A stretch of DNA of 64,000 nt, from contig CP130741.1 in assembly GCA_030586155.1 (NCBI GenBank), forward strand, positions 1,978,680-2,042,679. The letters run 5' to 3'. Every line of letters starts with the position of its first letter. Position 1 is the stretch's first letter. The notes under the pieces are model-generated. The model had not been told where the DNA came from. It did no database searches and saw nothing but the letters and a program-made list of their open reading frames with translations. Made by a program: the position numbers and the translations under genes. The DNA is from Eubacteriaceae bacterium ES3. Its GTDB lineage: Bacteria; Bacillota; Clostridia; Eubacteriales; Eubacteriaceae. Positions 1 through 24,118 of this stretch are shown here, piece after piece.

Positions 1-788
1 AAAAAAATCGTTCCAATTTCCTGACCTTCAAGAATCTCATATAGCACATCACAGTGCGCTCCAGAAGCGATAATAACATCTATGCCACAATCTGTAGCAT
101 ACTGGGCTGCTCCCAGTTTAGTTATCATTCCACCAGTACCAAGACCGGAAGAACTTGCACCCGCCAATTTCATCAGATCCTGATCAACCTGATAAACCGT
201 GCGAATCAGTTTTGCATCCTGATTTTTGACAGGATTATCATCGTATAGTCCATCGACATCTGAAAGAATAATCAGTAAATCAGCACCAACAATATCAGCC
301 GTCATCGCTGAAAGTATATCATTATCACCAAAACATTCTTCCTGAATTTCATCAGTTGCCACACAGTCATTCTCATTAACAATAGGGATAATACCATTTT
401 CAATCAGGGCATTAAATGTATTTGTTACGTTGCTTCTTTTAATCGAATGTTTGAAAACATCCTTAGTCAAAAGGATTTGACCTACTGTCTGATTAAACTC
501 ATCAAACAGCTTCTGATACACCCGCATCAGAAGCCCCTGACCAACCGAAGCCGCCGCCTGTTTGTCTCTCAGGATTTTTGGTCGCTCCTTTAGTCCCATC
601 CGGTTCATCCCGGCACCAATCGCGCCCGATGAAACAAGTACCATTCTTTTACCGCTGTTTTCGAGATCGGTTAAAACTCTGGCCAGACGTTCCATCTTTC
701 TCAAATCAAGGGTGCCATTTTCATGGGTGACTGAGGTTGTTCCCATTTTAACAACAATTCGTTTTGCTTCTTTAACTTTACTTCGCAT
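1..788 (-). CDS. proB: Glutamate 5-kinase, C-terminus cut by window edge
   Basis: Catalyses ATP-dependent phosphorylation of glutamate, the first step of proline synthesis in the cytoplasm. The visible 262 codons cover the amino-acid-kinase fold: an N-terminal IVVKMGTTSV strand-loop, a VLVSSGAIGAG glycine loop, NENDCVAT and FGDNDILSA in the middle, and GTGGMITKLGAAQYA near the end. The start is ATG at 788, preceded by AGGAG. The frame is still open at base 1, so whether a C-terminal PUA domain follows cannot be seen. It sits downstream of nrdJ on the same strand but has its own promoter-like sequence, so it is probably a separate transcript. Its usual partner proA is expected just outside the window. 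Confidence 0.93.
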   Translation of the reverse strand, partial: MRSKVKEAKRIVVKMGTTSVTHENGTLDLRKMERLARVLTDLENSGKRMVLVSSGAIGAGMNRMGLKERPKILRDKQAAASVGQGLLMRVYQKLFDEFNQTVGQILLTKDVFKHSIKRSNVTNTFNALIENGIIPIVNENDCVATDEIQEECFGDNDILSAMTADIVGADLLIILSDVDGLYDDNPVKNQDAKLIRTVYQVDQDLMKLAGASSSGLGTGGMITKLGAAQYATDCGIDVIIASGAHCDVLYEILEGQEIGTIF

Positions 789-820
789 TTATTTCTCCTG
801 ATTGATTATCCTAGTCTTTT

Positions 821-849
821 ATTATATCAAAGAAACATCAAATCCTCAA
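821..849 (-). promoter_or_regulatory. Sigma-A type promoter for proB
   Basis: On the minus strand a TTGAGG box (844-849) and TATAAT (821-826) are separated by 17 bases, about 30 bases upstream of the proB start. It lies in the short gap after the nrdJ stop, so proB need not depend on nrdJ transcription. Confidence 0.6.
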
Positions 850-861
850 AATCTTTTTTGA

Positions 862-3819
862 TCAGCTGCAACCCGTTGTCGTACCGCAATCCAGACATAC
901 CTTGCAAGTACCGTTGCGCATTAAACGATCACTTCCACAATGGCTGCAAACCTCGCCATACAGCATCTCACCCTGAATATCCTGCTGATAATGGGTAGTA
1001 TTTTGTTCTTTTTCTTTTATATCACTGCTTACACTGTCAATCCCGTTAATTTCATTCATAACAGTAAAGCTTTTTGGTTTTACCTGACAATTAGAAAAGT
1101 CACCGTGTTCAATATCAATAACCTTACTGATCAGATCAGAAATTGATGAAGCAAATTTAATGTATGGATGACGGGAAACAAATCCTGACGGCTCATATTT
1201 CTGTCCGCGCAGCATTTTTGAAATCTGATCAGGCGGAATATGGTATTGCAGCATATTAGAAATTGATTTCGACAAGGAAGCCAGTAAACCCTTGACTACA
1301 GTCCCCTCTTTGTCAGTCGATACGAAAATCTCGGCAATTCCACCATCTTCATAAAAACCAATTGTTATATACAGTTCAATATCGCCAATCTTAGCCGCAT
1401 GAGTTCGACTTAAACGCATTCCATCAGGTCTGATTCGGGTCGGCTGTTTACTACAGTCTTCTTTTGCAATTTCCAGCAGTTCCTGATACGTATATTCTTC
1501 CAACTGTCGTTCGTGATCTTCTGCCATTCCTGAACTCAAAGGCTGTGAAGCCTTACAACCATCACGATAAACCGCTATCGCTTTGGTTCCCGTTGCATAG
1601 GCTAATAAGTGAATGTTGGCTACCTCTTCCACTGTAGCTTCATGTGGCAGGTTAACTGTTTTCGAAACTGACCCGCTGATCATCGGCGTAATGGCCGAAA
1701 CCATTAAAACATGGCCCATCGGAGAAATTGTATTGGCTGTATCAAATACATTTCTGTGTTCTTTTTTAAGATGCGGTGCTCCAGCTATTCCATCATGAAC
1801 AAAGTAGCCTTCTTCATCCTTTTGAAGCATATAAGAAAGAATATCGCTTATTTCATTTTCCTGATATCCCAGATTTGCCAGGGCTGTTTCAATGACAGGA
1901 TTAACAATTTCCATCGAACCGCCGCCAATGAGCTTTTTGAACACAACATGATTATAAAATGGTTCTACTGAAGTTGCCCCGCAGTCCATGGCAAAAGAAA
2001 TCGTTCCAGTAGGTGCAATAACTGAAACCTGGGCATTTCGATAACCGTATTTATCTCCCATTTCTTCAGCTGATTTCCATGATTTAATCAGTTCTTTACT
2101 AATTTTTTCAAATCCCATTTCTGTCAGCTGATTGTGATTGATAACCATGGGATCGTAATTTAACTCCTCATAAACATCAGTCCTTGCACCTGCTACACGA
2201 CTATGGTTTCTGATTACCCGCATCATATATGGTTCGTTAATGGAAAACATCGGGAAAGCACCCACTTTTTCTGCCATCAATGCCGACACAGTATAGGAAA
2301 CTCCAGTCATCAAACCTGTCAAGGAAGCAATTAAATTACGGCTTTCAGTTGAATCATAGGGATATCCCAAAGCCAATACAAGAGATGCCGCATTGGCAAT
2401 ACCCAAACCCGTTGTTCTAAACAGGTAGCTCTTTCGTGCCACAGATGGTGTCGGAAACTGTCCCCAGAAAATTGAAGCTTCTAGTGCGCACTGAATCAGG
2501 GCGGTTAAATGAATAAATGAACCTTCATCAAAGCTTTTGGTAGTTTCATCGTAAAATCTGAAGATATTTATTGATGCCAGATTACATGCGGTATCATCTA
2601 GAAAAGCATATTCAGAACAAGGGTTGGTCGCATTGATCCGATTTATTTTTTCGTTTATGTTGCCATTTTCACCACCTGGACATGTATGCCAGGCGTTAAA
2701 ACGGTCATCAAACTGAAGACCAGGATCAGCACATTCCCATGATGCGCTGTTGATGCTGTCCCATAGAGTTTTAACCGACAATTCCCGATCAACACTTTCA
2801 TCAACCCGACCTTTAAGCGTAAACATCTGATCCGGATCCTGTGATAAGTTAAGAACAGATTGCATAAAGTCTTCATTTAAACGAACTGAGTTATTACTGT
2901 TTTGACCGCTGACAGTTTGATAGGCTTCACCATCCATCGATAAGTCATAACCCATTTTTCCCAGATCTCGAACTTTACGTTCTTCTTTGACCTTCCAATT
3001 AATAAATGTATCAATTTCTGGATGATCAATATCAACAATTACCATTTTAGCGGCTCTTCTGGTCGTTCCACCGGATTTTATCGCTCCAGCATTACGGTCA
3101 AGACCGAGAAGAAAACTCATCATCCCTGATGACTGTCCGCCACTGGTCAGCCCTTCGTTGACACCACGAAGACTTGAAAAATTCGTCCCAACACCAGATC
3201 CACCCTTGAAAAGTTTTGTTTCGCTAACATAGTGCTCAGAGATAGAGTGTTCTCCTAAAAGTCTGTCTTGAATAGACAAAATAAAACAGGCACTTGCCTG
3301 GGTTCTGGTGTAGCGATCATCACTTTCTTCTACTGTCTGTGTTTCTTCGTTATAATAATATAAATCATCTTTTGAACCTTTAATCCCGTAGCTTCTTTGA
3401 AGTCCGGTATTAAACCACTGTGGAGAATTTGGCGCCCACATCTGCATCAGAAAAGCATAAACCAGCTCATCATAATAGATTTGCCACTGCTCATCTGTCT
3501 CGATTAACCCCTCTTCTTTTAAAGCATCTGCCCAAAAACCAACCAGGCGATCAGCTACTTCGCGCATACTATGCTCATAGCCATAAGCATTCGGAACGCC
3601 CTTACGTCTAAAATATTTTGTCGCAATAATATTGCAGGCATTCTGCGAATAATGAACAGGAAATTCCAGATCCTTCATGTCATAGATCAATTCCCCTGTC
3701 TGATAATTTTTTAAGACAACATCTACTGTCTGCCACTGAAACAGGTCATAGACTGTTTTATTCGAATCTGCCAGCTCGCTGGTAAATACCCGTTTTAAAA
3801 TTTGATTTAGTTCTTTCAA
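862..3819 (-). CDS. nrdJ: Adenosylcobalamin-dependent (class II) ribonucleoside-diphosphate reductase
   Basis: Reduces ribonucleotides to deoxyribonucleotides using a B12-derived radical, so it works without oxygen. The 985-residue protein has NSPQWFNTGL near 131, GGSGVGTNFSS near 207, and NPCSE at 399-403 followed 11 residues later by a second cysteine in DDTACNLASIN. That spacing matches the thiyl-radical and redox cysteines of the family. PTGTIS is near 640. The last about 28 residues form a Cys-rich tail (CSHCG, CKVCLDCG) typical of NrdJ for re-reduction. The start codon is TTG at 3817-3819, preceded by GGAGAGG about 10 bases upstream. No NrdR-box was identified. Confidence 0.95.
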   Translation of the reverse strand: MKELNQILKRVFTSELADSNKTVYDLFQWQTVDVVLKNYQTGELIYDMKDLEFPVHYSQNACNIIATKYFRRKGVPNAYGYEHSMREVADRLVGFWADALKEEGLIETDEQWQIYYDELVYAFLMQMWAPNSPQWFNTGLQRSYGIKGSKDDLYYYNEETQTVEESDDRYTRTQASACFILSIQDRLLGEHSISEHYVSETKLFKGGSGVGTNFSSLRGVNEGLTSGGQSSGMMSFLLGLDRNAGAIKSGGTTRRAAKMVIVDIDHPEIDTFINWKVKEERKVRDLGKMGYDLSMDGEAYQTVSGQNSNNSVRLNEDFMQSVLNLSQDPDQMFTLKGRVDESVDRELSVKTLWDSINSASWECADPGLQFDDRFNAWHTCPGGENGNINEKINRINATNPCSEYAFLDDTACNLASINIFRFYDETTKSFDEGSFIHLTALIQCALEASIFWGQFPTPSVARKSYLFRTTGLGIANAASLVLALGYPYDSTESRNLIASLTGLMTGVSYTVSALMAEKVGAFPMFSINEPYMMRVIRNHSRVAGARTDVYEELNYDPMVINHNQLTEMGFEKISKELIKSWKSAEEMGDKYGYRNAQVSVIAPTGTISFAMDCGATSVEPFYNHVVFKKLIGGGSMEIVNPVIETALANLGYQENEISDILSYMLQKDEEGYFVHDGIAGAPHLKKEHRNVFDTANTISPMGHVLMVSAITPMISGSVSKTVNLPHEATVEEVANIHLLAYATGTKAIAVYRDGCKASQPLSSGMAEDHERQLEEYTYQELLEIAKEDCSKQPTRIRPDGMRLSRTHAAKIGDIELYITIGFYEDGGIAEIFVSTDKEGTVVKGLLASLSKSISNMLQYHIPPDQISKMLRGQKYEPSGFVSRHPYIKFASSISDLISKVIDIEHGDFSNCQVKPKSFTVMNEINGIDSVSSDIKEKEQNTTHYQQDIQGEMLYGEVCSHCGSDRLMRNGTCKVCLDCGTTTGCS

Positions 3820-3868
3820 TGATTATTATCCTCTCCGATCAAATACATGATCTTGTTGTTGCTTGTCT

Positions 3869-3897
3869 ATTATACACATATATATAGTGCATTTCAA
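3869..3897 (-). promoter_or_regulatory. Sigma-A promoter for nrdJ
   Basis: On the minus strand TTGAAA (3892-3897) and a perfect TATAAT (3869-3874) are spaced by 17 bases, about 50 bases upstream of the TTG start of nrdJ. The spacer is alternating AT. Confidence 0.7.
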
Positions 3898-3935
3898 GAT
3901 TTAAATTTGCTATTTTAAGGCTATAATTTCATCTC

Positions 3936-3971
3936 GTAAAGAAAGACTCAAATTAATGAGTCTTTCTTTAC
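3936..3971. terminator. Terminator-like hairpin after plsY
   Basis: A perfect 15-bp inverted repeat with a 6-base loop starts 3 bases beyond the plsY stop. The descending arm is T-rich in either direction, but there is no long free U-tract. It probably ends the ptb-iorAB-plsY transcript. Confidence 0.65.
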
Positions 3972-3974
3972 AAT

Positions 3975-4613
3975 CTATTTTTTTCTTTGTCTTGAGCTTC
4001 TTTTTTTCTTTATTGGTGCCTTTTGACCCAATTTACTTTCTTTTCCCTGAATTATGCGCCCAATATTTTTTCGATGCTGAAAAACACTGAAAAAACACAG
4101 AACAAAAGCAAATAAAATCTCATGAATCGGCCGTCCCATCAGGATGGTTATGATCGGTAAAACCGATAACCCAACAATTGAGGTCAGCGAAACCATTCGC
4201 CATAATACCAAAACAATCAGACCGATTGCAATTGCAATCAGGGCAACCTGCCAGTCGTAAATCAGAAAAACGCCGATTGAGGTTGCAGTTCCTTTTCCCC
4301 CTCGAAACTGCAGGAAGAGAGGCCAATTATGACCAGCAACGACGGCAATCCCCCCTAATACGATAAACCAGTCATAGAGACCAATTGCATTTCCGATTAT
4401 GATGATCAGACTTCCTTTTAAGGCGTCCAGCAAAAATACTGGCAGAGCATAATTCTTCCCCATCACCCGCAGTACGTTCGTAGTTCCGGCATTACCGCTT
4501 CCATAATCCCTGACGTCTTCGTTTTTAAATACTTTTACCAATATATAGGCAAAATTGAGATTACCGATCAGGTAAGCACCAATCACATATAATATACCAA
4601 ATATAAACAACAT
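3975..4613 (-). CDS. plsY: Glycerol-3-phosphate acyltransferase PlsY
   Basis: Membrane enzyme that transfers the acyl group from acyl-phosphate to glycerol-3-phosphate, the first step of phospholipid synthesis. The 212-residue length, about five hydrophobic segments, and the motifs SGNAGTTNVLRV (about 39-50), AGHNWPLFLQFRGGKG (about 93-108) and a third conserved loop all fit PlsY. The C-terminus is a lysine/arginine-rich cytoplasmic tail. ATG at 4613 is preceded by GGGGTAAAGG. It is the last gene of an operon with the Cys-rich protein, iorB, iorA and ptb, an unusual partnership for a lipid gene and probably read-through organisation rather than shared function. Confidence 0.95.
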   Translation of the reverse strand: MLFIFGILYVIGAYLIGNLNFAYILVKVFKNEDVRDYGSGNAGTTNVLRVMGKNYALPVFLLDALKGSLIIIIGNAIGLYDWFIVLGGIAVVAGHNWPLFLQFRGGKGTATSIGVFLIYDWQVALIAIAIGLIVLVLWRMVSLTSIVGLSVLPIITILMGRPIHEILFAFVLCFFSVFQHRKNIGRIIQGKESKLGQKAPIKKKRSSRQRKK

Positions 4614-4628
4614 GACCTTTACCCCTTA

Positions 4629-4901
4629 TCACACTTTAATTCTTAAATTTTCCATCAACTCACGAAGTTTTTCCAGCACAGCATCATAATTTTCTTTATG
4701 ATGTGGAAATGAGCAATTGATACAATTCTTAATCCCACTTTTCGTATAAGAAAAATTTCCACCACACTGATCTTCAAGAGCATATAAAGGACAATAACAA
4801 AAGAGACAGTTAAAAGTCTCTTTTGACTGTATTTCATGGCAGGGAAAAAATTCGCAATCCTTATGTTGAAAAAACTTGAAATTTTCGCTTTGTTCAACCA
4901 T
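4629..4901 (-). CDS. Small cysteine-rich, probably metal-binding protein
   Basis: This 90-residue protein has cysteines in closely spaced sets: CEFFPCH, CLFCYCP, a central CGGNFSY and CINCSFPHH near the C-terminus. The pattern resembles the 'cysteine-rich small domain' family, whose members are thought to bind zinc or an iron-sulfur cluster; the function is unknown. The frame is open further upstream, but the ATG at 4899-4901 overlaps the iorB TAA by one base, as iorB itself does with iorA. That start is therefore preferred and implies translational coupling. Its position directly after iorB suggests a role near the oxidoreductase, for example in cluster handling, but that is inference. Confidence 0.75.
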   Translation of the reverse strand: MVEQSENFKFFQHKDCEFFPCHEIQSKETFNCLFCYCPLYALEDQCGGNFSYTKSGIKNCINCSFPHHKENYDAVLEKLRELMENLRIKV

Positions 4902-5476
4902 TAAACTGCTTCCATCCCAGCCTTTAAAGCTTTTATGTTGAGTTCCACAAATTGCGGTTTTACACTGTCTTTTATAATATCTTCCCAATTGATTTCTGAA
5001 AGACCCATTGCTTTAACCAGAGACCCCAGCAAAATGACATTCATCACCTTAATATTGCCAAGCTTCTCAGCCATTTCACCGGCCTTCATCACTCTTAACG
5101 ATTCGACATTTTTTTCAAGTTCAGCAAGGATACCAGTCGGATAAGCGGCTGTTCCAATAATAACTGACAACGGAAAAATTTCTGTATCATTTAATATCAG
5201 CTTTCCATCTGGTTTTAAATAATCGATTGCTCGAAGCGCTTCCATTTTTTCAAAGGCAACAACAATATCCGCACTTCCCAACTCAATAACCGGAGAAGCG
5301 ACATCACTGCCATATCGAACCAGCGACGAAACAGACCCACCCCTTTGGCTCATACCATGGATTTCACTCATCTTAACATCATATCCAGCTTCCATCAAGC
5401 CGGTAGTTAAAAGTTTTGCAGCCAGAATCGTTCCCTGTCCACCTACACCAACGAGCACTATATTTTTTGTCTCCAT
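4901..5476 (-). CDS. iorB: Indolepyruvate:ferredoxin oxidoreductase, beta subunit
   Basis: Gamma/beta-type 2-oxoacid oxidoreductase subunit (191 residues). With IorA it oxidatively decarboxylates aryl pyruvates to acyl-CoA and reduces ferredoxin. The N-terminal IVLVGVGGQGTILAAKLL motif is the family signature, followed by SEIHGMSQRGGSV at about 37-49. The ATG at 5476 is preceded by GGAGG and overlaps the iorA stop by one base (TAATG); an upstream in-frame ATG would extend it into iorA and is not supported. Coupled translation with iorA fits a stoichiometric complex. Confidence 0.94.
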   Translation of the reverse strand: METKNIVLVGVGGQGTILAAKLLTTGLMEAGYDVKMSEIHGMSQRGGSVSSLVRYGSDVASPVIELGSADIVVAFEKMEALRAIDYLKPDGKLILNDTEIFPLSVIIGTAAYPTGILAELEKNVESLRVMKAGEMAEKLGNIKVMNVILLGSLVKAMGLSEINWEDIIKDSVKPQFVELNIKALKAGMEAV

Positions 5477-7257
5477 TATCTCGCCTCCACTTTGATCGCC
5501 TGTTTTGGGCAGATTTGCGCACAAACTCCGCAACCTACACACATTTCAGCAAGAATTCCTGATTTTTTATTTTCCCTGTCAAAAGCAAGTGCCGGGCAAC
5601 CGGATTTAAGACATTTTTTACAACCAATGCAGGCTTCAATATCTACTTTTGCAACCTTTTTAAAGGCTTCCGGAAACTCTTCCTTGTCTTCCTGAGACAT
5701 TTTTTTCAAAACACATGGCCAACGGGTAATTAATACAGCTGGCTCGGAAAGATTTATTCCCCATTCGATTGCACCTTTAACCGCATCAAGGTCATTTGGA
5801 TCAACCGTTTTTACATTTTTAATCCCACAGGCATTCACCATCGTCGCAATATCAATCATAGTTGCTGGTTCACCTTTTAAATCATAACCTGAGCCAGGAT
5901 TTTCCTGATGGCCGGTCATTCCAGTAATTCGGTTATCCAAAATAATCGTCAGAGTATTACTGTTATTATAGGCAACATTTAAAAGACTGGTGATTCCTGA
6001 ATGAAAAAATGTGGAATCGCCAAGAATTGAAACGACTTTTTTATCCTGCTCACCTTTAATAGCAAAAGCTTTGGCCACCCCATGTCCACCACTGATTGAG
6101 GCGCCCATACAGATCATTGCGTCTGTCGCATTGTATGGTGCCATTAAGCCTAATGAATAGCAGCCAATATCGGAAAAAATCATCAGATCTTTTCTTTTCC
6201 CCAACTCATAAAATACCCCACGATGAGGACAACCAGCGCACAGTGCAGGTGGTCTTGGTAAAATCATTTCAGGGTTTGGAGTCAAAGATTTTTTGGTTTC
6301 CCCAGACAAGGCTTGTCTGACACGATCAGGTGTCAGTTCTCCCATAGAAGGCAACTTGTCTTTCCCGATTACCTGGATGCCTGCTGCCTTAATTTCAGTT
6401 TCCATTATCGGATCATTTTCTTCGAAAATATAGAGTGTCTCTTTGCCTTCAGCAAACTGTTTAATCTTCTCCATTGGTAACGGATATGAGAAACCGATTT
6501 TTAAATATGAAACGGTATCACCAAAAACTTCCTTGGCATATTGGAAAGCAACACCTGAGCCAATCACACCAATTTTCGACTGATTATCTTCAATATAGTT
6601 ATAAGCCGTTGTGTTTGAATACTCGTTTAGTTTTTCAAAGTTTTCGTTTAGTTTTACCAGCATTTGTCTTGAAAAAGCTGGCAGTGGACAATACTTGGGA
6701 ACATTTTTTTCATAAACTTTATCAGGGATTTCAAGACGGTCGTCGCATGAAACAATGGATTTGGAATGACATACACGCGTCGTTAATCTGAACAAGACCG
6801 GAAGATCATAGGTTTCACTGACAACATAAGCTTCCTTTATCATGTCTTTAACTTCCTGACTGTCTGAAGGTTCAAACATCGCCACTTTTGCATGACGGGC
6901 GTAATGTCGGTTATCCTGTTCATTTTGTGAAGAATGCATTCCCGGCTCGTCTGCAGATATTAAAACTGCTCCCCCATTTACTCCCAAATACGCTAAGGTG
7001 AATAATGGATCAGCAGCCACATTAACACCAACGTGTTTCATTGCACACAGGCTTCTTACTCCAGCAATCACTGCTCCTGCTACTGACTCCAGGGCTACTT
7101 TTTCATTAGGTGCCCACTCTGATACAATCTCCTCGTAAGTTGCAACATTCTCAAGGATTTCGGTACTTGGTGTTCCCGGGTAAGCTGATGCAAATTTAAC
7201 ACCGGCCTCCCATGCACCTCTTGCAACTGCTTCATTTCCTGTTAACAGTTTCTTCAT
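5476..7257 (-). CDS. iorA: Indolepyruvate:ferredoxin oxidoreductase, alpha subunit
   Basis: Large TPP- and FeS-containing subunit (593 residues) that oxidises indolepyruvate and related aryl pyruvates from aromatic amino acids. Visible parts are the N-terminal pyrimidine-binding domain (GNEAVARGAWEAG, YPGTPSTEI), a CAGCPHRG motif in the middle, the TPP-binding region (GDSTFFHSGI and later DNRITGMTGHQ), and a C-terminal two-cluster ferredoxin domain (CIGCKKCLKSGCP and CVGCGVCAQICP). The start at MKKLLTGNEA is chosen because GAGAGGAG lies about 13 bases upstream; an in-frame ATG at 7287 exists but gives an atypical N-terminus. The start overlaps the 3' end of ptb by 26 bases. Confidence 0.94.
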   Translation of the reverse strand: MKKLLTGNEAVARGAWEAGVKFASAYPGTPSTEILENVATYEEIVSEWAPNEKVALESVAGAVIAGVRSLCAMKHVGVNVAADPLFTLAYLGVNGGAVLISADEPGMHSSQNEQDNRHYARHAKVAMFEPSDSQEVKDMIKEAYVVSETYDLPVLFRLTTRVCHSKSIVSCDDRLEIPDKVYEKNVPKYCPLPAFSRQMLVKLNENFEKLNEYSNTTAYNYIEDNQSKIGVIGSGVAFQYAKEVFGDTVSYLKIGFSYPLPMEKIKQFAEGKETLYIFEENDPIMETEIKAAGIQVIGKDKLPSMGELTPDRVRQALSGETKKSLTPNPEMILPRPPALCAGCPHRGVFYELGKRKDLMIFSDIGCYSLGLMAPYNATDAMICMGASISGGHGVAKAFAIKGEQDKKVVSILGDSTFFHSGITSLLNVAYNNSNTLTIILDNRITGMTGHQENPGSGYDLKGEPATMIDIATMVNACGIKNVKTVDPNDLDAVKGAIEWGINLSEPAVLITRWPCVLKKMSQEDKEEFPEAFKKVAKVDIEACIGCKKCLKSGCPALAFDRENKKSGILAEMCVGCGVCAQICPKQAIKVEAR

Positions 7258-8197
7258 ACTTTCTTTTTTGCTCCTCTCGTTTATCATGACAATTTCCTGT
7301 ACGCTGAACCAGATAGGCTCCCAGGTTGATTGAATTTAGCTTATTATCTTGTGATTCTGAACGGGATGTTAAAATAACCGGCACACAAGCCCCCATTACA
7401 ACACCCGCCAGTCTGGCCTGAGCCAGACAGGTCATCGTTTTAACGACCGCATTACCGGTTTCTATCTCCGGGAATAAAAGGATATCTGCATCCCCAGCAA
7501 CTTGCGACTGATAACCTTTGATCTCAGCTGCTTCTTTTGAAACAACCAAATCCATAGCTATCGGCCCATCAGCTAGTACATCGGTCCCAAAAACACCATC
7601 GTTTGACATTTTTTTTAGTTCCGCGGCATCAAGAGTTGCCGGCATTTTAGGATTCACTTTTTCTTTAGCCGCGAGTACGGCAACTTTAATAGGATTGATA
7701 TCAAGTGCTCTTGCCAGGTCAATTGCATTATCTAAAATTTCTTTTTTCTTTGAAAGATCCGGGGCAATAACCATTCCGCCATCTGTTGTAATCAAAGGCT
7801 TATGATATGAAGGCAGTTCCACAACCATGACACTACTAAGCAGACGACCTGTCATTAGACCCTTTTCTTTGTGAATAATCGCTTTTAAAAAAATCGATGT
7901 ATCAACAAGACCCTTCATAACCAGATCTGCCTTTCCCTGATTAACCAGCAAGACTGCTGTCTCACAGGCCTCTTCCAGAGTACTGGCAAAAATCTGATTC
8001 GTTTTTGATAAGTCTAGCGAATTCTCTTCTTTTAATTGTTTAATTTTATTAAGATCACCGACTAAAAACACCCCTGATAAGGATGTTTCCAGTGCCATTA
8101 GTACGGCTTTTAAAAGGCCAGCTTCTTCCGGCGCGGCAATTGCCAACACTGGTCTATCGCTATTTTCCATTAACTTACTTAGGTCGGAAAAGTTCAT
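7232..8197 (-). CDS. ptb: Phosphate butyryl/acetyltransferase family protein
   Basis: A 321-residue PTA_PTB-fold enzyme that exchanges CoA and phosphate on an acyl group. The sequence has VLAIAAPEEAGLLKAV at the N-terminus, DLVMKGLVDTSIFLKA near 95, ITTDGGMVIAPDL near 138 and the family C-terminal segment beginning VILTSRSES. Placement directly upstream of iorAB suggests it converts the aryl-acetyl-CoA or other acyl-CoA made by the oxidoreductase to an acyl phosphate for ATP formation; the exact substrate cannot be read from sequence. No kinase gene is adjacent. The last about 25 residues are basic and overlap the iorA start. Confidence 0.85.
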   Translation of the reverse strand: MNFSDLSKLMENSDRPVLAIAAPEEAGLLKAVLMALETSLSGVFLVGDLNKIKQLKEENSLDLSKTNQIFASTLEEACETAVLLVNQGKADLVMKGLVDTSIFLKAIIHKEKGLMTGRLLSSVMVVELPSYHKPLITTDGGMVIAPDLSKKKEILDNAIDLARALDINPIKVAVLAAKEKVNPKMPATLDAAELKKMSNDGVFGTDVLADGPIAMDLVVSKEAAEIKGYQSQVAGDADILLFPEIETGNAVVKTMTCLAQARLAGVVMGACVPVILTSRSESQDNKLNSINLGAYLVQRTGNCHDKREEQKRKYEETVNRK

Positions 8198-8261
8198 ATT
8201 TTACCTCTTTTCTCGAATCAATCCTGAGTAACTAAGTACAACTTAATAAATTACATTTAAA

Positions 8262-8325
8262 AACACAAAAAACCACAGCATTTACCGTCTAATTTTAACA
8301 CAAATAAACGGTGAATGCTATGGTT
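8262..8325 (-). terminator. Rho-independent terminator of citrate synthase
   Basis: On the minus strand an imperfect 18-bp stem (8308-8325 with 8271-8288) with a 19-base AT-rich loop is followed by TTTTTTGTGTTTTT. It lies just after the citrate synthase stop and separates that gene from ptb. Confidence 0.85.
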
Positions 8326-8342
8326 ATACGAATCAATTCTAT

Positions 8343-9704
8343 CTAACGTTCGTCAATAGGAACATAGGGATTGCGTTCACAAACATTCTTATATGCAGGA
8401 CGGATAATTTTCCCAGCGTTAATCAGTTCTTCCAGTCGATGGGCACTCCATCCGGAGATACGCGCTATAGCAAAAATTGGGGTAAATAATTGCGGTGGCA
8501 GCCCCAGCATATTATATACGAATCCACTATAGAAGTCGACATTAGCACTCACACCTTTATATATTTTTCGAGTTTCAGCGATGGCTTCCGGAGCCAGGCG
8601 TTCAACCATGGAATATAGTTCAAACTCTTCCGTTTTCCCCTTTTCTTCCGATAGCTTTTTAACAAATCCTTTGAAAACGTTGGCCCGCGGATCAGAAACC
8701 GAGTAAATCGCGTGTCCAATCCCATAAATAAGCCCCGCTTTGTCAAAGGCCTGTTTACTTAAAAGTTTAACTAGATAATCTTTGACCTGAGCCTCATCAC
8801 TCCAGTCGCTGATATTTTTCTTGATATCTTCAAACATTTCGACAACTTTAATATTTGCACCACCATGCTTGGGTCCCTTAAGAGAACCAAGTGATGCAGC
8901 GATCACCGAGTAGGTGTCCGTTCCTGATGATGATACAACATGGGTTGTAAAGGTGGAATTATTCCCGCCACCATGTTCTGCATGAAGAACCAGTGCAATG
9001 TCAAGAATTCTTGCTTCAAGATCTGTATACTGGCTGTCAGGTCTTAAAATGTGGAGAATATTTTCAGCTGTTGATAAATGTGGCTGCGGTTGATGAATAA
9101 ACAAACTCTGGCCATCGTGATAGTGTTTATACGATTGATAGCCATATACAGCCAATAGCGGAAAGAGGGCGATCAGCTCCAGACATTGTCTTAAAACATT
9201 GGGAATACTGATATCACTGGCTCGGTCATCATAGGCGAACAATGTCAGAACGCTTCTGGCTAAAGTATTCATCATATCAGAGCTTGGAGCTTTCATGATG
9301 ATATCTCTAACAAAACTCGTTGGCAATGTTCTATAGTTTCCCAATACCCTTGAGAAATCATTCAGCTTTTTATTATCAGGTAGTTCACCAAATAATAGAA
9401 GATAGGTCACTTCTTCAAAACCGAAGCGATTCTCATTAACAAACCCATCCACTAAATCCTGGACATTGATACCACGGTAAAAAAGCTCTCCATCAATTCC
9501 AATTTTCTCACCATCTATAAAATTAAAAGCTTTAATCTCAGAAATTTCAGTTAAACCGGTAAGAACACCGTTTCCCTGAAGATCACGAAGCCCACGGTTC
9601 ACTTTATATTTTTTGTAGAGTTCCGGTTCAATAAAATTATTCGAACGACATAACTCACTATATGCAAGAATTTCAGGCGTCAGCTCAGAAAAGATTCGAT
9701 TCAT
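8343..9704 (-). CDS. gltA: Citrate synthase
   Basis: Condenses oxaloacetate and acetyl-CoA to citrate; in an acetogen this feeds 2-oxoglutarate and glutamate synthesis. The 453-residue protein has the si-type citrate synthase fold. It shows a catalytic-region HAEHGGGNNSTFTTH (about 235-249), SLKGPKHGGAN (about 269-279) and GIGHAIYSVSDPRA (about 320-333). The N-terminal about 40 residues are an extension seen in clostridial and lactic-acid forms. ATG at 9704 is preceded by GGAGATGG. It is transcribed alone, bounded by its own terminator and a long upstream gap. Confidence 0.93.
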   Translation of the reverse strand: MNRIFSELTPEILAYSELCRSNNFIEPELYKKYKVNRGLRDLQGNGVLTGLTEISEIKAFNFIDGEKIGIDGELFYRGINVQDLVDGFVNENRFGFEEVTYLLLFGELPDNKKLNDFSRVLGNYRTLPTSFVRDIIMKAPSSDMMNTLARSVLTLFAYDDRASDISIPNVLRQCLELIALFPLLAVYGYQSYKHYHDGQSLFIHQPQPHLSTAENILHILRPDSQYTDLEARILDIALVLHAEHGGGNNSTFTTHVVSSSGTDTYSVIAASLGSLKGPKHGGANIKVVEMFEDIKKNISDWSDEAQVKDYLVKLLSKQAFDKAGLIYGIGHAIYSVSDPRANVFKGFVKKLSEEKGKTEEFELYSMVERLAPEAIAETRKIYKGVSANVDFYSGFVYNMLGLPPQLFTPIFAIARISGWSAHRLEELINAGKIIRPAYKNVCERNPYVPIDER

Positions 9705-10502
9705 GTTCCATCTCCTTTATTTTTTTCGTTATTTTTTATCCTTATTAAATATTATAACGTATTTCCAGTCATAATAAAAGTTAAATCTAATAAAACAAGG
9801 CCTATTTTGAAAGTATTTCTTTATTACTATCATTTAATAATTTGCAGGGTATTAAATAAATTTCAAGTGAGGATAAAATTTGTTTAATTTTAATGCTCCA
9901 AAAGCAAACTTTTTTGAGGTTCAAATTTTAAAGTCCAACAATTTTGCTTAGCTAAATTTCAGTAAATAGAGCCTACTCGCAACATCATCTCCTTTTGTAG
10001 TATTTCAAAATGATGATTTTATAAACCATCATTCTGCAGTTTTTCGAATCAGGATAAAATGAAAGAAATCAGCCTTTTCTTTCATTTTAATAAATATAAT
10101 CTAAAATTTTGAAAGAATCTGCCATGATTCCTTTATTGTATTTTTGGAGGTGAAGTTTTCGTATCATTTTTTACTCATATTCTCTTTTATTCTTTATCAA
10201 ATAACAAAAGCTGAAGAGGCTAAGAATGCTGTAATTTTTATTTAATACGTTTTCAATCTACGCCTCTTTTTTGCTAAATGAACTATTGTAAAAAACTACT
10301 CACTGTGATAAACTAATCCTCGTTTTGAAAACGAAAGACTAACTATTAAAAGTCAAGTCTAAATTGACATTATTTGAATGAATTGCAGAAATGCAGTTCA
10401 GATAAGTTAAGAACTGAAAATGAGTTAACTGAACATTGAAAACTGCATGACAAAAAGAGCATCTTTGCAGGTGCTCAAAAAAGAGATATTTATTAAAAAA
10501 AT
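9705..10502. other. AT-rich intergenic stretch, no gene seen
   Basis: About 800 bases between citrate synthase and the IS110 transposase hold no credible reading frame. A perfect 13-bp AT-rich inverted repeat with a 7-base loop lies at 10056-10088. A TATAAT-like element upstream of citrate synthase near 9763 has only a poor -35. A terminator for the transposase sits at the right end. No tRNA, riboswitch or protein remnant was recognised. It may include the non-coding end of the insertion sequence. Confidence 0.5.
10446..10476 (-). terminator. Terminator after the IS110 transposase
   Basis: On the minus strand GAGCA and TGCTC (10457-10476) form a short hairpin with a 10-base loop, followed by TTTTTGTC. 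It is about 27 bases beyond the transposase stop. A-runs on the other side make it possible in both directions. Confidence 0.55.
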
Positions 10503-11678
10503 CTAAGCTGATTTAATGTATGTTTGCCCAGATCTTTCCAACTGGTAAATGACTCTTACAAGCTTTTTGGCCGCGTGAGATATTGCGACATTGTAGTGTT
10601 TTCCTTCAGAACGTTTCTTTGCAAGATAAGCTGCAAATATTGGATCCCAGTTACAAACAAATTTAGTTGCATTAAATAATGCATAGCGAAGATATCTGGA
10701 GCCTCGTTTCTCCATATGGGAATAGGCACCATCAAGTTGTCCTGATTGGTAAGTTGATGGCGACAGACCAGCATAAGCAAGTATTTTGTCAGGAGTATCA
10801 AAGCGTTTAAAATCACCGATTTCAGCAATAATCATAGCCCCCATACGATAACTGATTCCAGGAATGCTAAGAATGGGAGAATTTATTTCATCAATTATGA
10901 TTTTGATTTCAGATTCTATTTCATCAATTTCACAATCAAGTTCCTGAATAAGCTTAATGGTGTGTTTTAGTTCCAGTGATTTAGCCGGCATATTTGAGCC
11001 AATAGAAGTTCTAGCGGCTTCTCTGAAACGAACAGCGGTATCTTTGGAATATCGACCTTTAGAGGCTGTTTCAATGAGTTTGGAAAGCCGCGTAAGGTGA
11101 GCAGACGCAACAGCACTAGCACCCGGGAATTCAGAAAGCAATGCATAAACAGAAGTTAAATGAAGAGTAGGAACAAGTTTTTCCAATTCAGGGAAAAGAA
11201 TTGTAACAAGTCTGGAAATAGATTGTTTAAGTTTCGAACGTTGCTTTACTTTATCAAAACGATAGCGGGTTAATGACTTCAATTCTTCATTGTGGTAAGA
11301 TGTGTCTGAGTAGGACTTTAAGTTCACATCAGACATAATCATAGAAGCAATTGTTCGGGCATCTACCTTATCCGTTTTCGTCTGTCTAAGGCTTAGACTT
11401 TTTCTGTACAGATTGGTATGTAACGGATTGATAACATAGGTGGCGAGACCTTTATCAACGAGATAACCGAGAAGATTGTAACTGTAATGTCCTGTGGCTT
11501 CCAGCCCTACTTTTACTTTAGTTAAATCTTCTGCAACAGAGGAAATCTTCTGAAAAAAATCATCAAAACCATCACGGTTGTTCATAATGGTAAAGGCTTT
11601 AAAGAGTATCTCTCCATCTGAGTTAGTAATAAAGCAATCATGCTTATCTTTAGCAACATCAATTCCTGCATAAATCAT
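10503..11678 (-). CDS. IS110-family transposase (DEDD recombinase)
   Basis: Full-length 391-residue recombinase of an IS110-type element, which moves without the usual terminal inverted repeats. The N-terminal RuvC-like DEDD domain starts with YAGIDVAKDKHDC (first Asp near 6), then VGLEATGHYSY near 57 and TDKVDA near 100. The C-terminal Transposase_20 domain has LSIPGISYRMGAMIIAEIG and FDTPDKILAYAGLSPSTYQSG, which includes the serine-bearing segment. ATG at 11678 has AAGGAGA upstream. No frameshift is visible, so it looks functional. The exact ends of the element cannot be set from one copy. Confidence 0.93.
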   Translation of the reverse strand: MIYAGIDVAKDKHDCFITNSDGEILFKAFTIMNNRDGFDDFFQKISSVAEDLTKVKVGLEATGHYSYNLLGYLVDKGLATYVINPLHTNLYRKSLSLRQTKTDKVDARTIASMIMSDVNLKSYSDTSYHNEELKSLTRYRFDKVKQRSKLKQSISRLVTILFPELEKLVPTLHLTSVYALLSEFPGASAVASAHLTRLSKLIETASKGRYSKDTAVRFREAARTSIGSNMPAKSLELKHTIKLIQELDCEIDEIESEIKIIIDEINSPILSIPGISYRMGAMIIAEIGDFKRFDTPDKILAYAGLSPSTYQSGQLDGAYSHMEKRGSRYLRYALFNATKFVCNWDPIFAAYLAKKRSEGKHYNVAISHAAKKLVRVIYQLERSGQTYIKSA

Positions 11679-14410: not shown

Positions 14411-14489
14411 CGAAATGCAGCTGGCTGGCTTCCCTCTTGGTTAAACCCCTATAGTTTTGCGTCCTTACCTTTCGATAAGTTTGCCTAAA
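14405..14489 (-). promoter_or_regulatory. Cyclic-di-GMP-I (GEMM-I) riboswitch aptamer
   Basis: Read on the minus strand this has the GEMM-I core in order: AGGCAAAC, a hairpin closed by a GAAA tetraloop (TTATC-GAAA-GGTAA), GGACGCAAA, and a second arm with a tetraloop-receptor-like segment and AGCCAGC. The tetraloop arm and the GACGCAAA junction are the most conserved parts of the class. The closing helix P1 pairs imperfectly here. The gene start lies about 80 bases downstream. Ligand preference and on/off polarity cannot be decided by eye. Confidence 0.8.
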
Positions 14490-15034
14490 TATCATTAAAT
14501 TAATCGTAGATAGCTAATATCCGTATATTATCATTTTTTTTAAATAAATACAAGGAAATAAAAGTAAAAAATAGCAATCGACTTATAGTTCACCGCTTTA
14601 AATTCAATTTTAACTACCTAAATATATATTTTCAATCATTGATGTGATGGTAAAAATTATATGACAGCTTTATGTATAATTATCATTGAAATATATATAC
14701 AATACTTTGGTAATGGCAAACATTGCTTAACTTACGTCACCACATTAGCATCTTGTGCATCAGTTATTATAAAAGCATATTCATTTTACTTCTTTACACA
14801 TAAAAAAATCCACTACAAACGCATATTTAATGCGGTTCTAATGGATCCTTAGTTCATTTTTATTTGGCAGGGGCAGAAGGATTTGAATTATTATCTTTCC
14901 TGAAATCCGCAATAATCAATCATGCTGACACTAGTCATAAATCCTATTATAAAGCCTTTTCTCATTATCCTTAATAATCCTAGATAACCCACTTTCATTT
15001 CTCTAAGGGGTACGCTAAGGGGTCAATTAAGGGG
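14490..15034. other. AT-rich gap at the island's left junction
   Basis: Contains the presumed promoter region of the riboswitch transcript, the left attachment copy at 14865-14887, and unassigned AT-rich sequence on both sides of it. A 63-codon frame at 14661-14852 lacks a ribosome binding site and is not called. Confidence 0.5.
14865..14887. repeat. attL core, 23-bp copy of the tRNA-Trp 3' end
   Basis: Identical over 23 bases to 24043-24065, covering CCA, the discriminator, the 3' acceptor strand and part of the T-arm of tRNA-Trp. The flanking bases differ on both sides, so this is the integration crossover region. It lies 148 bases from the integrase stop. Confidence 0.93.
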
Positions 15035-15037
15035 TCA
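15005..15037. repeat. Left arm-type repeats, three 12-bp phased copies
   Basis: AAGGGGT occurs at 15005, 15017 and 15029, exactly 12 bases apart, and the last copy supplies the TGA stop of the integrase. A 23-base segment (15015-15037) is repeated perfectly at 23953-23975. Position and phasing fit arm sites for the integrase N-terminal domain. Confidence 0.75.
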
Positions 15038-16183
15038 GAGTGTTTCAATGAAAGCGTTCATTCTGTCAGAGCTGGCCTTTCTCATGGAGTCAGTAACATG
15101 GGCGTAGGTGTCCATGGTAAAGGCTGCTGAATGGTGGCCTAAGTTCTCCTGTACTGTCTTGATATCGTCCCCAGCCTGAAGGGATAGGACAGCGAACGCA
15201 TGACGCAGATCATGAAAACGCAGGTCAGGGTGATCCATTGCAGCTACAATATTCTTATAGTGCTTAACCAGCGTCCGATGAACGATATTAGCCCCCAGCG
15301 GATTGGTAAAGATGAATTTTTCCGGGTTTTGCCATGCTGAACCTGCCCTTAACCGATTTTCAGACTGCTTTACCCGCTCTGCTTTAAGTGTGGTCATAAC
15401 TAAATCAGCTGGCTTAATTAGCCTTGTCTTGTTATTTTTAAGGGTAGACCATTTATAGGCACCGTCTAACCGCTGGTACTGCCTGTAAACATAGATGGTT
15501 CCGGCTTCAAAGTCTACACAGTCCCATGTCAGACCGATTATTTCAGATTGCCGTAAACCGGTGAATAGATCCACAAGGAATATATTCTCGTATGAATCCC
15601 CTTTGATCGCTTCCAGAAAAGCCGGTACAATGGTTTTATCAATCGGTTTGGTTTGAGTCTTGATAACCTTAGGTAGTTTACAGGTGTCAGCTGGATTAGA
15701 CCGAATATAGCCCAGATCAGCAGCCTGTTTAAGTCCTTTGTGCAGCACACCATGAATGTTCTTAACGGTTTTGGCTGCATAATCGTCATTCAGCTTGTTA
15801 TAGAATTTCTGCAGGTGGTGCGGTGCCAGTGCTGACAGCTTAACATTGCCCAGAGATGGGATGATGTGGGTATTAATTTGAACCTTGTAGGTCTTTATGG
15901 TCAGGGGCTTTAAATTTAGAACATAATCAGTGATCCAGATATTAAACCAGTCAGAAACCGTTAATTTTGATGGCTCCTTATATTCCCCGGTATCAATCGA
16001 AGCCAAGACAGCGGTCAGCTTCTTTCTAACTTCCTGTTGTGTAGCCCCATAGACGGATTTACGGATCTGCTTTCCTGTACCGGGATCACGTCCCAGAGTA
16101 TACCGAGCCTCCCACCTTCCATCAGGCCGTACACGGATTTGACCAGATCCCTGGGCGTTTCGGGTTTCCTTTTTTCTTGCCAT
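15035..16183 (-). CDS. int: Tyrosine-recombinase integrase of the satellite
   Basis: A 382-residue site-specific recombinase that integrates and excises the island at tRNA-Trp. Residues 14-68 form an AP2-like arm-binding domain (GRWEARYTLGRDPGTGKQ), about 74-160 the SAM-like core-binding domain, and about 175-375 the catalytic domain. The catalytic set is R211 (GLRQSEI), H324 and R327 (HDLRH), H350 (LGHHS) and Y360. ATG at 16183 has GAGGTG upstream. It lies next to attL, transcribed towards it, as usual for such elements. All active-site residues are present, so it should be functional. Confidence 0.95.
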   Translation of the reverse strand: MARKKETRNAQGSGQIRVRPDGRWEARYTLGRDPGTGKQIRKSVYGATQQEVRKKLTAVLASIDTGEYKEPSKLTVSDWFNIWITDYVLNLKPLTIKTYKVQINTHIIPSLGNVKLSALAPHHLQKFYNKLNDDYAAKTVKNIHGVLHKGLKQAADLGYIRSNPADTCKLPKVIKTQTKPIDKTIVPAFLEAIKGDSYENIFLVDLFTGLRQSEIIGLTWDCVDFEAGTIYVYRQYQRLDGAYKWSTLKNNKTRLIKPADLVMTTLKAERVKQSENRLRAGSAWQNPEKFIFTNPLGANIVHRTLVKHYKNIVAAMDHPDLRFHDLRHAFAVLSLQAGDDIKTVQENLGHHSAAFTMDTYAHVTDSMRKASSDRMNAFIETL

Positions 16184-16200
16184 TTTAACACCTCATTTCA

Positions 16201-16229
16201 TTGTAAAACTATATGAATTGTGGTATAAT
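16201..16229 (+). promoter_or_regulatory. Promoter of a small RNA, divergent from int
   Basis: TTGTAA (16201-16206), a 17-base spacer and a perfect TATAAT (16224-16229) face rightwards, away from int. The only thing downstream before the terminator at 16281-16315 is an 80-base untranslated-looking stretch. Confidence 0.65.
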
Positions 16230-16235
16230 AAACTC

Positions 16236-16315
16236 ATGTATAGGATAGAAATTTCCACAATTCTTATTCTCCTTTTTGAAGTCCTTGATCCCTGTCCGGA
16301 TCAGGGGCTTTTTTT
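16236..16315 (+). ncRNA. Predicted about 80-nt small RNA with anti-Shine-Dalgarno segment
   Basis: It starts at the expected +1 of the promoter above and ends at a strong rho-independent terminator. It lies between the convergent-strand genes int and the repressor and is antisense to neither. The unpaired segment 16264-16275 (TTATTCTCCTTT) is a perfect complement of 19996-20007, the ribosome binding site of the first gene of the middle operon. A 27-codon frame begins with an ATG at the predicted +1, so a leaderless micro-peptide is an alternative reading. Confidence 0.5.
16281..16315 (+). terminator. Rho-independent terminator of the small RNA
   Basis: An 11-bp stem (16281-16291 with 16298-16308, two G-T pairs) with a 6-base loop is followed by seven Ts. 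The T-tract is only on the plus strand, so it does not serve the minus-strand repressor gene. Confidence 0.85.
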
Positions 16316-16369
16316 ATGAGTCGGTAAATTATCCGAGTCAAACCTTCGACCCAGTAGGTTGTGGGTTCG

Positions 16370-17110
16370 TTATTCATCTTTCTGATACTCTGGGACTTTT
16401 GAAAGGTTGCGCCTATGATCTTCGATTAAAGTTAATAGCCCTTCATAGATTTTATAAAATTCGTCATTACTTGCTTCCCCCTCATCAGACAGTCTAATTA
16501 ACACCCCATAATTTTTTATTATCTGTGTTAATCGCTTTTCACATTCCGTTCTTTTGATTTCAGAATCTATCACCTTAAAACTGTTTGTTGTAAAATTTAA
16601 ACTCTTTAACAACTCAATGATTTCAACCTGTGTCAATGACTTTAAATATTCTTCAAACATCTCGATTTGTTCATTTGCCACGTTATTTTGCGAAAAAGTA
16701 TCTTTCAAATCTTTATTAAAATCAATTTCGGCTCTAATAAAATCTTTAAAAGTATAACCCGATAACAATTTTAATTTGTCATCTTCAGCTTGCGTAGGTT
16801 TCATATTCCCATTAAGTAAAAATAGGCAACGCTCATAATCGATATTAAGCATATGAGCAAGACCATCGATTGTAGTAGTTCCGGCTCTTTGTAGAATGCT
16901 GAAATAATATTTATCTAATTCATCTTGGGTTAAATCTGTCACTGACACGTCTAATGCTTTTGCTATTTTTTCAAGTGTTTCACCTTTAGGATTTCTTTCT
17001 CCTCTCTCCCACTGACTAACCATTGCAGCAGAGACGCTCAAAATATCACCTAATTCTTCTTGTGTTAAGGGTTTTTTCTTCCGAAAATTTTTAATATTTT
17101 CTCCTATCAA
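16370..17110 (-). CDS. XRE-family repressor of the satellite
   Basis: A 246-residue regulator, probably the master repressor (Stl/CI-like) that keeps the island silent. Residues about 3-58 are a helix-turn-helix (LTQEELGDILSVSAAMVSQWERGERNPKG) and the C-terminal about 180 residues are a helical region without a recognisable peptidase, so induction is probably by protein binding rather than self-cleavage. The best start is TTG at 17108-17110, placed 8 bases after AGGAGG; the GTG three codons upstream overlaps that ribosome site. It is transcribed divergently from the Cro-like gene across an operator region. Confidence 0.85.
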   Translation of the reverse strand: MIGENIKNFRKKKPLTQEELGDILSVSAAMVSQWERGERNPKGETLEKIAKALDVSVTDLTQDELDKYYFSILQRAGTTTIDGLAHMLNIDYERCLFLLNGNMKPTQAEDDKLKLLSGYTFKDFIRAEIDFNKDLKDTFSQNNVANEQIEMFEEYLKSLTQVEIIELLKSLNFTTNSFKVIDSEIKRTECEKRLTQIIKNYGVLIRLSDEGEASNDEFYKIYEGLLTLIEDHRRNLSKVPEYQKDE

Positions 17111-17161
17111 ATAGTCCACCTCCTAATTACAGTTTATCATAGCACAACGTTCATTCAAAAT

Positions 17162-17237
17162 AAAGCAAAATGATTGAAATATTTTATTGACAAAAGCATT
17201 GTGATTGATTTATAATCGAACTAAAGCAAATTGCTTT
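17162..17237. promoter_or_regulatory. Lysogeny-switch operators and rightward promoter
   Basis: Three related 15-base sites, at 17162-17176, 17193-17207 and 17223-17237, share AAAGCA...TGnTT and start 31 and 30 bases apart, about three helical turns. The last is nearly palindromic. They bracket a rightward promoter with TTGACA (17187-17192) and TATAAT (17211-17216), spacer 18. This is the layout of a repressor-controlled switch between the two regulator genes. Confidence 0.7.
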
Positions 17238-17257
17238 CGTTTTAGGAGGTGAAACAA

Positions 17258-17616: not shown

Positions 17617-17662
17617 TGCGGATGTTCAAACAGTTATCATAATTTAGAAGGGATGTGAGGAT

Positions 17663-17854
17663 GTGGAAAAACTAACCTACACAGCAAAAGAGATAGCGGA
17701 ATTAATGGGGCTTGCACTACCAAAGACCTATGATCTTTGTAATCGGGCAGACTTCCCCGCTATTAGAGTTGGCAGAGCTATCAGAGTGCCGATAAAGGAA
17801 TTTGAGGAATGGCTCAGCAGAGAGGCACGAGGTGAAAATGACAGAGCAATTTGA
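17663..17854 (+). CDS. xis: Excisionase-like helix-turn-helix protein
   Basis: A 63-residue protein with a winged-helix DNA-binding pattern: YTAKEIAELMGLALPKTYDLCNR, then FPAIRVGRAIRVPIKEFEEWL. This matches the helix_turn_helix_17/excisionase group. It probably directs the integrase towards excision or acts as an early regulator. The start is GTG at 17663; AAGGG and GAGG lie nearby but the spacing is not ideal. The stop overlaps the beginning of the primase-helicase gene by 17 bases. Confidence 0.75.
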   Translation: MEKLTYTAKEIAELMGLALPKTYDLCNRADFPAIRVGRAIRVPIKEFEEWLSREARGENDRAI

Positions 17855-19955: not shown

Positions 19956-20012
19956 AGCCAGTGTATATAGGAAGCCCACCAGTTGAAAACAAATTAAAGG
20001 AGAATAACAAAT

Positions 20013-21225: not shown

Positions 21226-21231
21226 AAAAGA

Positions 21232-21310
21232 CTCCTGAAAATACAGGAGCCAACCATAGGCGGTGACGATCTACCAAACCTGTTGGCGCAGGTTCTGAGC
21301 CGCCTTTTCT
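21232..21310 (+). ncRNA. Structured stretch: hairpin plus nested hairpin with T-run
   Basis: A first stem CTCCTG/CAGGAG (21232-21237 with 21244-21249) is followed by an outer stem AGGCGG/CCGCCT (21258-21263 with 21300-21305) enclosing an inner stem AACCTG/CAGGTT (21277-21282 with 21289-21294), then TTTTCT. It could be just an elaborate terminator for the middle operon or a small structured RNA. No known class was recognised. Confidence 0.5.
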
Positions 21311-21332
21311 AAAAAATAACATATATACCGGG

Positions 21333-23952: not shown

Positions 23953-23975
23953 CTAAGGGGTCAATTAAGGGGTCA
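23953..23975. repeat. Right arm-type repeats, two phased copies
   Basis: AAGGGGT occurs at 23955 and 23967, 12 bases apart. The 23-base block is identical to 15015-15037 at the left end and in the same orientation. Probable integrase arm sites at the right end of the island. Confidence 0.75.
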
Positions 23976-24002
23976 AAATATTAATATCAGTTTCAGAACA
24001 TT

Positions 24003-24042: not shown

Positions 24043-24065
24043 TGGCAGGGGCAGAAGGATTTGAA
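24043..24065. repeat. attR core within tRNA-Trp
   Basis: Right-hand copy of the 23-bp direct repeat shared with 14865-14887; it forms the 3' acceptor strand, CCA and part of the T-arm of the functional tRNA. Confidence 0.93.
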
Positions 24066-24118
24066 CCCTCGGCACGTGGTTTTGGAGACCACTGCTCTAC
24101 CAACTGAGCTATACCCCT
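24043..24118 (-). tRNA. trnW: tRNA-Trp (CCA anticodon)
   Basis: A 76-base minus-strand tRNA that folds into the cloverleaf: acceptor AGGGGTA/TGCCCCT, D-arm GCTC...GAGC, anticodon stem GTGGT/ACCAC with loop CTCCAAA, variable GTGCC, T-arm GAGGG-TTCAAAT-CCTTC, discriminator G and an encoded CCA. The island has inserted at its 3' end and restores the complete gene (attR copy 24043-24065). Confidence 0.97.

Follow-up and report, generated by a model that had tools for sequence, protein, structure and literature searches.

Ribosome-site-blocking small RNAs of Firmicutes, such as those of the LhrC and RsaA types, have their own promoter, an intrinsic terminator and a CU-rich segment that covers the Shine-Dalgarno sequence. 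Small RNAs of integrative elements that act on the element's own transfer are also described: RteR of CTnDOT acts on the tra operon and the sgm-sRNA of SGI1 is needed for mobilization by an unknown route, with action on alpA or xis reported for neither in the available portions of PMC9299015. Among phage satellites, P4 encodes a short antisense RNA, the CI RNA (Rfam C4 family; seqA/seqC), which holds its own replication genes off in the lysogenic state (PMC4825925 and PMC10111431, in the parts available). This CI RNA is cut out of a longer transcript that spans the region under its control, and it works by terminating transcription. The PICMI satellites of Vibrio contain int, a primase and alpA, PF12728 being one of the families that the PICMI model relies on for alpA, and AlpA is described as necessary and sufficient to activate such a satellite (PMC10803314, in the part available), while in the available text of PMC7699646 an HTH-17 excisionase on its own drives excision of a C. 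difficile prophage; these two activities make alpA a sensible control point. AlpA thus wakes at least PICMI satellites, and how it is silenced before the helper acts is left open in PMC10803314, the available text of which holds no mention of RNA control of alpA. Literature on small or antisense RNAs in connection with excisionase, xis, integrase, prophages or phage satellites contained, among the matches listed and in the portions of text that these offer, no RNA encoded beside int that silences alpA or xis. An RNA lock on alpA, if true, would be a directly testable answer to how alpA stays silent.

The DNA analysed here (the window, 64,000 nucleotides of Eubacteriaceae bacterium ES3, whose genome is a single contig of 3.39 Mb) carries an element of about 9 kb bounded by a 30-nt direct repeat with 90% identical copies. 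The repeat search placed the left copy, a probable att site, at 15015-15044 (+) and the right copy at 23953-23982 (+), adjoining the tRNA-Trp gene at 24043-24118 (-). From the left, the element encodes a tyrosine integrase (int, 15035-16183, minus strand, from Pfam/PHROG-type profile matches) and, on the same strand and upstream of int, a cI-like repressor (16370-17119, minus strand; HTH_3, E 8.7e-17). These are followed rightward by a cro-like gene, an alpA-like gene with an HTH_17 domain (17663-17854, plus strand; Pfam PF12728, E 1.6e-11; phrog_66, E 6.2e-6, annotated in PHROG as 'excisionase and transcriptional regulator') and an NrS-1-type primase/helicase gene. The alpA gene starts with GTG at 17663 and its stop codon ends at 17854, so that it overlaps the primase start, ATG at 17838. 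After the primase come three genes without assigned function, beginning at 20013, and then the genes for a scaffold and a major head protein, which set the element apart from PICMI satellites, described in the available text of PMC10803314 as being without capsid-remodelling genes. With int, alpA, primase and capsid genes inside direct repeats, the element is a capsid-gene-bearing, phage-satellite-like (cf-PICI-like) island. The definition of cf-PICIs includes their own portal, head protease and small terminase; the capsid-type genes recognised here, among the 10 proteins scanned, are the scaffold and the major head protein only. Two hairpins at 21226-21330, between the 20866 and 21333 genes and with a minus-strand terminator at 21251-21230, may represent another small RNA of the element, and just outside its boundary a c-di-GMP-I riboswitch at 14413-14495 (-) precedes the 13626-14324 gene.

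The unit that concerns us lies between int and the repressor gene, outside the rightward alpA operon. The first-pass annotation had claimed a promoter and a strong terminator here, defining an 80-nt transcript divergent from int, and both are found where it placed them: the promoter scan identified TTGTAA-17-TATAAT with an extended -10 TG at 16201-16229 (+), the terminator scan a 14-pair stem-loop with a T-run at 16278-16311 (+), and the predicted 80-nt RNA, its start set from the -10 spacing, occupies 16236-16315 (+). The segment 16264-16275, previously called unpaired, is only partly free, its mean unpaired probability being 0.57 in the folded 80-mer. Possession of its own promoter and intrinsic terminator is a feature shared with trans-acting small RNAs that block ribosome sites; compared with the LhrC and RsaA types, the window RNA is borne by a mobile element and predicted to act on one element gene. 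It resembles the P4 CI RNA in being a short antisense RNA predicted to act on the satellite's own genes, and the initial description of 'a new regulatory layer for such elements' was too strong: self-control of a satellite by antisense RNA is already known from P4, as far as the cited portions of that literature go. Unlike the CI RNA, the window RNA is encoded next to int, across the repressor gene from the transcript that it would control and not within it; it is served by a promoter and a terminator of its own, and its predicted mode is to cover a ribosome site.

At gathering score, Rfam models matched only the tRNA and the c-di-GMP-I riboswitch in the whole window and nothing covering the small-RNA unit; the C4 and isrK models gave no match in the window, and no known family covered the corresponding units of seven relatives. 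The possibility that the RNA is a type I antitoxin, or that the int strand carries a conserved leader peptide, was rejected, as no conserved small frame lies opposite the RNA: frames with a Shine-Dalgarno sequence there are of 21 and 8 aa in the window and of an unrelated 13 aa in one relative (G006), with none in two others (G016 and L011). The int-strand copy of the window RNA, at 16193-16258 (-), has a Shine-Dalgarno sequence, a GTG and a 21-aa frame that resembles the start of alpA; this arrangement is not conserved in the relatives. Next to the unit, the motif GAGTCGGTAAATTATCCGAGTC occurs at 16318-16339, and also at about 1501-1529 of L006 and at 2699-2720 of L011; it reappears, with changes, close to integrases and at other sites in the genus, and is possibly a dispersed repeat.

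The analysis of possible targets covered 380 gene starts, of which 321 lie in 400 kb of sampled host sequence, 43 elsewhere in the window and 16 in the satellite; binding of the RNA was computed with the ViennaRNA dimer partition function and the duplex with duplexfold. Host starts come from a simple rule that combines reading frame and Shine-Dalgarno sequence, and in the satellite list the primase start stands 3 nt late (17841 for 17838). On both measures alpA (17663) came first among the 380, at -21.6 for binding (runner-up -17.3) and -35.7 for the duplex (runner-up -26.0), and it remained first under all six choices of RNA start and end that were tried. The predicted duplex joins 16236-16281 (+) of the RNA to 17642-17684 (+), that is, to the alpA ribosome site, GTG start codon and first codons, through 36 pairs, of which 30 are Watson-Crick and six G-U. 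The score was not matched in 300 dinucleotide shuffles of the target or in 1000 shuffles of the RNA head, so that complementarity to the ribosome site of a target exceeds background, as expected of a small RNA of this kind. The longest Watson-Crick run in this pairing is 8 nt, a length reached by 54 of the 364 host starts. Promoter, terminator, the complementarity with its rank, and the layout in relatives discussed below are all present at the level of sequence.

We therefore favour, with confidence about evenly balanced, a model in which the small RNA, acting in trans, would base-pair with alpA mRNA across the ribosome site and keep alpA untranslated during dormancy. By covering the ribosome site, the start codon and the first codons, the RNA would leave the excisionase/activator gene silent in the dormant element and, since the end of alpA at 17854 overlaps the primase start at 17838, silencing may reach replication, extending perhaps to the primase through the overlapping reading frames. 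Transcription of the RNA, translational repression of alpA and the coupling to the primase are steps that we infer.

A different target, the gene at 20013, had been put forward before on the basis of a 12-nt match, and the match itself is correct: TTATTCTCCTTT at 16264-16275 is exactly complementary to AAAGGAGAATAA at 19996-20007 (+), on the ribosome site of that gene, as a pattern search also found. As evidence it is weak, because the 12-mer is present seven times in the 3.39-Mb genome, compared with no copy of the reversed control. These seven comprise the RNA's own complement, the 20013 site, four copies followed at 0-5 nt by a plausible start codon (in two cases that of a short frame, 33 and 49 aa) and one that is apparently gene-internal; among sampled host gene starts, a Watson-Crick run of at least 12 nt with the RNA head occurs at one of 364. 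When all 380 starts are compared, the position of 20013 is 43rd for binding and 47th for the duplex; across the six start and end choices it lies between 25th and 52nd. The first-pass annotation had asked whether this gene would rank first, and it does not. The first-pass annotation had also named, as findings that would speak against it, many equally good host matches and the conservation of one segment without the other, and both are largely the case: four further likely ribosome sites carry the same 12-mer, and G006 has the RNA together with a 20013 homologue and no pairing between them (-4.5 kcal/mol, rank 236 of 365). That homologue, 41% identical, is the only one among the 39 other genomes of the family that were searched, and tblastn at E 1e-3 found none in the G016 and L011 stretches. 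What stands computationally of the original claim is a satellite-encoded trans-acting RNA directed at one of the satellite's own ribosome sites; 20013 as its target was ruled out by its rank, the host matches and the non-conservation, the 12-nt complement is judged incidental, and repression of 20013 through it would now be most surprising.

Two same-genus islands, G006 and G016, and one IMG/VR contig, L011, have a promoter and a terminator at the equivalent place with a diverged middle sequence, and this retention of the layout argues that the small-RNA unit is real. The terminator sequence type of the window unit is common to G006 and G016. A promoter-terminator pattern of the window type, with a spacer limit that excludes the window's own unit, was found in G006 and G016 only among 67 genomes of the order and gave no match among the viral contigs. 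Neither G003 nor the second element in the window's genome has the unit. In G015 a terminator-like hairpin stands at the equivalent place without the RNA promoter, and the alpA ribosome site GGATGTGA is nevertheless kept, similar to that of the window, which counts against the alpA model.

With the host starts of the window's genome as background for both RNAs, alpA of G006 led all 365 starts, and its score was reached in none of 300 shuffles of the target and in 8 of 1000 shuffles of the RNA head. It also led the 16 genes of its element, through a perfect run of 11 nt, a length not attained at any of 364 host starts. In G016 alpA came fifth by binding and third by duplex among 365 starts, and first among the 17 genes of its element; target shuffling reached these scores in 5 and 4 of 300 cases, and shuffling of the head in 8 of 1000. 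One seed pair differs between G006 and G016 on both sides, from C-G to U-A. Pairing is not strictly cognate, however, as the G016 RNA binds window alpA at -17.0, G006 alpA at -13.3 and its own alpA at -12.3. Since homology between the RNAs of G006 and G016 is plain to see, alpA pairing amounts to about two independent observations, and alpA was picked as the target after the G006 match had been seen.

L011, whose integrase is 76% identical to that of the window, spans 1-10556 with identical terminal direct repeats of 127 bp, such as a circular or terminally redundant genome should have, and judged by this sequence it is a complete relative of the element recovered as a viral contig. Its RNA does not pair with alpA, which ranks 202nd by binding and 320th by duplex of 365. 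Among the viral contigs, alpA relatives sought by protein alone gave none that was confirmed.

The sequence shared by the two sites could instead be a DNA operator. A protein such as AlpA or Cro would then bind GGATGTG-like sites, one near alpA and one by the int-side promoter, and their inverted orientation would yield the RNA complementarity as a by-product. The repeat search did find an inverted repeat over the promoter, with a left arm at 16211-16223 that spans the small-RNA -10 and a right arm at 16255-16267 inside the RNA, 92% complementary to the left and 31 nt apart. By eye, L011, G006 and G016 also show repeats here, though with different sequences. The alpA site of the window contains two copies of GGATGTG, and the left arms of G006 and G016 contain GGATGTGG or AGATGTGG. 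However, the 36-pair pairing in the window, which takes in the first alpA codons and includes six G-U pairs, exceeds what a short operator would need, and the repeats at 17155-17242 between repressor and cro, which are likely to be the repressor operators, carry another motif. We regard the operator explanation as improbable.

The main rival to alpA silencing concerns int itself. In a scan of 16184-16370 no minus-strand promoter-like or terminator-like site was listed, and int lies downstream of the same-strand repressor gene; a sequence TTGACT-17-CATAAA at 16341-16313 (-) fails the scan rule only by its last base. An int mRNA arising from the repressor promoter or from this weak site would be complementary to most or all of the small RNA, which is complementary over its full length to any minus-strand transcript across 16236-16315, and even the weak site would start int mRNA inside the RNA's terminator. 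The small RNA may then be mainly a cis-antisense RNA to the int leader, hindering int expression on read-through from the repressor side, with the alpA complementarity secondary. Classes of RNA without alpA pairing (see below) also have the int-divergent layout, and of three class loci that were tested, two (L063 and L065) have an RNA that pairs better with the int start than with any other gene of the element. Such control leaves unexplained why alpA is the top element-gene partner in three islands. We consider it unlikely as the main function, though a serious contender, and it is compatible with alpA silencing rather than exclusive of it. The same complementarity allows a speculative step in the alpA model, in which an int transcript from the repressor side might soak up the small RNA. 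This sponge step is weakened by reports of int expression in the dormant state, when the small RNA would be needed, in SaPI5 (PMC6848492) and apparently in PICMI (PMC10803314), both in the portions of text available.

To see how general the layout is, we collected 91 int loci and kept the 88 with at least 250 nt upstream, dropping three with less. In 14 of these 88 upstream regions a promoter divergent from int lies no more than 110 nt away and has a terminator 45-130 nt beyond it, with 0.35 expected from dinucleotide shuffles, although the regions are not all independent (L056 is the L144 contig, L145 is near-identical, and the L063 and L065 integrases are 99% identical). L055, being the same island as G006, was left out. 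Eight of the 14 units, about 75 nt long and provided with a hairpin at the 5' end and a terminator, belong to one Oscillospiraceae sequence class and lie upstream of int in L063, L064, L065, L072, L077, L079, L100 and L117. Over an 80-nt region its members retain 65-90% identity where their integrases share 48-60%; in five further pairs the integrases are 82-99% identical. Both results bear on the proposal that the window locus holds an insulating terminator, shielding the repressor gene from int-side transcription, along with a fortuitous or weak promoter and no regulatory RNA. The terminator-like hairpin that G015 retains without a promoter would suit an insulator, but the joint occurrence of promoter and terminator far above expectation, and a class better conserved than the neighbouring integrases, would not, and we find this explanation very improbable.

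The conserved, structured Oscillospiraceae class is a candidate RNA family. In a comparison of nine sequences, six of its 27 predicted pairs show a two-sided change in one or more of them; Rfam 15 gave no match to the five members searched (L063, L064, L065, L077 and L117), and the Flavonifractor phage Castelnaud carries the class RNA at about 2884-2964 of L197, where no RNA is annotated. A class model (R1) at E 0.01 found 28 places in 22 of 391 Clostridia-class genomes, beside which integrases were sought by tblastn with four queries at E 1e-5. Seven of the 28, including six of the best 10 rows, adjoin a tyrosine integrase (22-33% identity) that is encoded on the opposite strand and points away, even though the model contains no integrase information; in L202 and L206 the integrase N-terminus is unaligned, so that its distance to the RNA is uncertain. 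The other 21 places are without an adjacent integrase, and the model is thus not specific. It also matched at 8669-8745 of L157 (E 1.6e-6) and at 2861-2942 of L162 (minus strand; E 2.6e-4), mid-element in two capsid-bearing relatives; by eye, a promoter-like sequence at the L157 match abuts an oppositely oriented start codon.

As a shared target of all int-divergent RNAs alpA is not supported, either for L011, for L157 or for the eight Oscillospiraceae loci. Among 365 starts alpA is third by binding in L117 and second by duplex in L072, but shuffling the target 300 times gives values as good in 49 and 99 cases, respectively. For the other RNAs of the class and for L157, whichever measure is the more favourable is still equalled in 49 to 291 of 300 shuffles. 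A unifying scheme can nevertheless be drawn, in which int-divergent small RNAs would form a widespread, uncatalogued module of Clostridia phages and satellites. The promoter would sit in the int leader, the RNA would hold an excision or activation switch off, and strong int transcription would soak the RNA up, so that integrase and excisionase act together, the window having the alpA-targeting version. We think this scheme doubtful, the more so in view of the int expression described for dormant SaPI5 and apparently for PICMI. The int-side layout in other Clostridia elements provides a set for comparison in any case. In L145 and L056 the region upstream of int contains a small frame reading MTVYEGLMLMLTFGGF... 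beside int, which we take to resemble the holin-like type I toxins.
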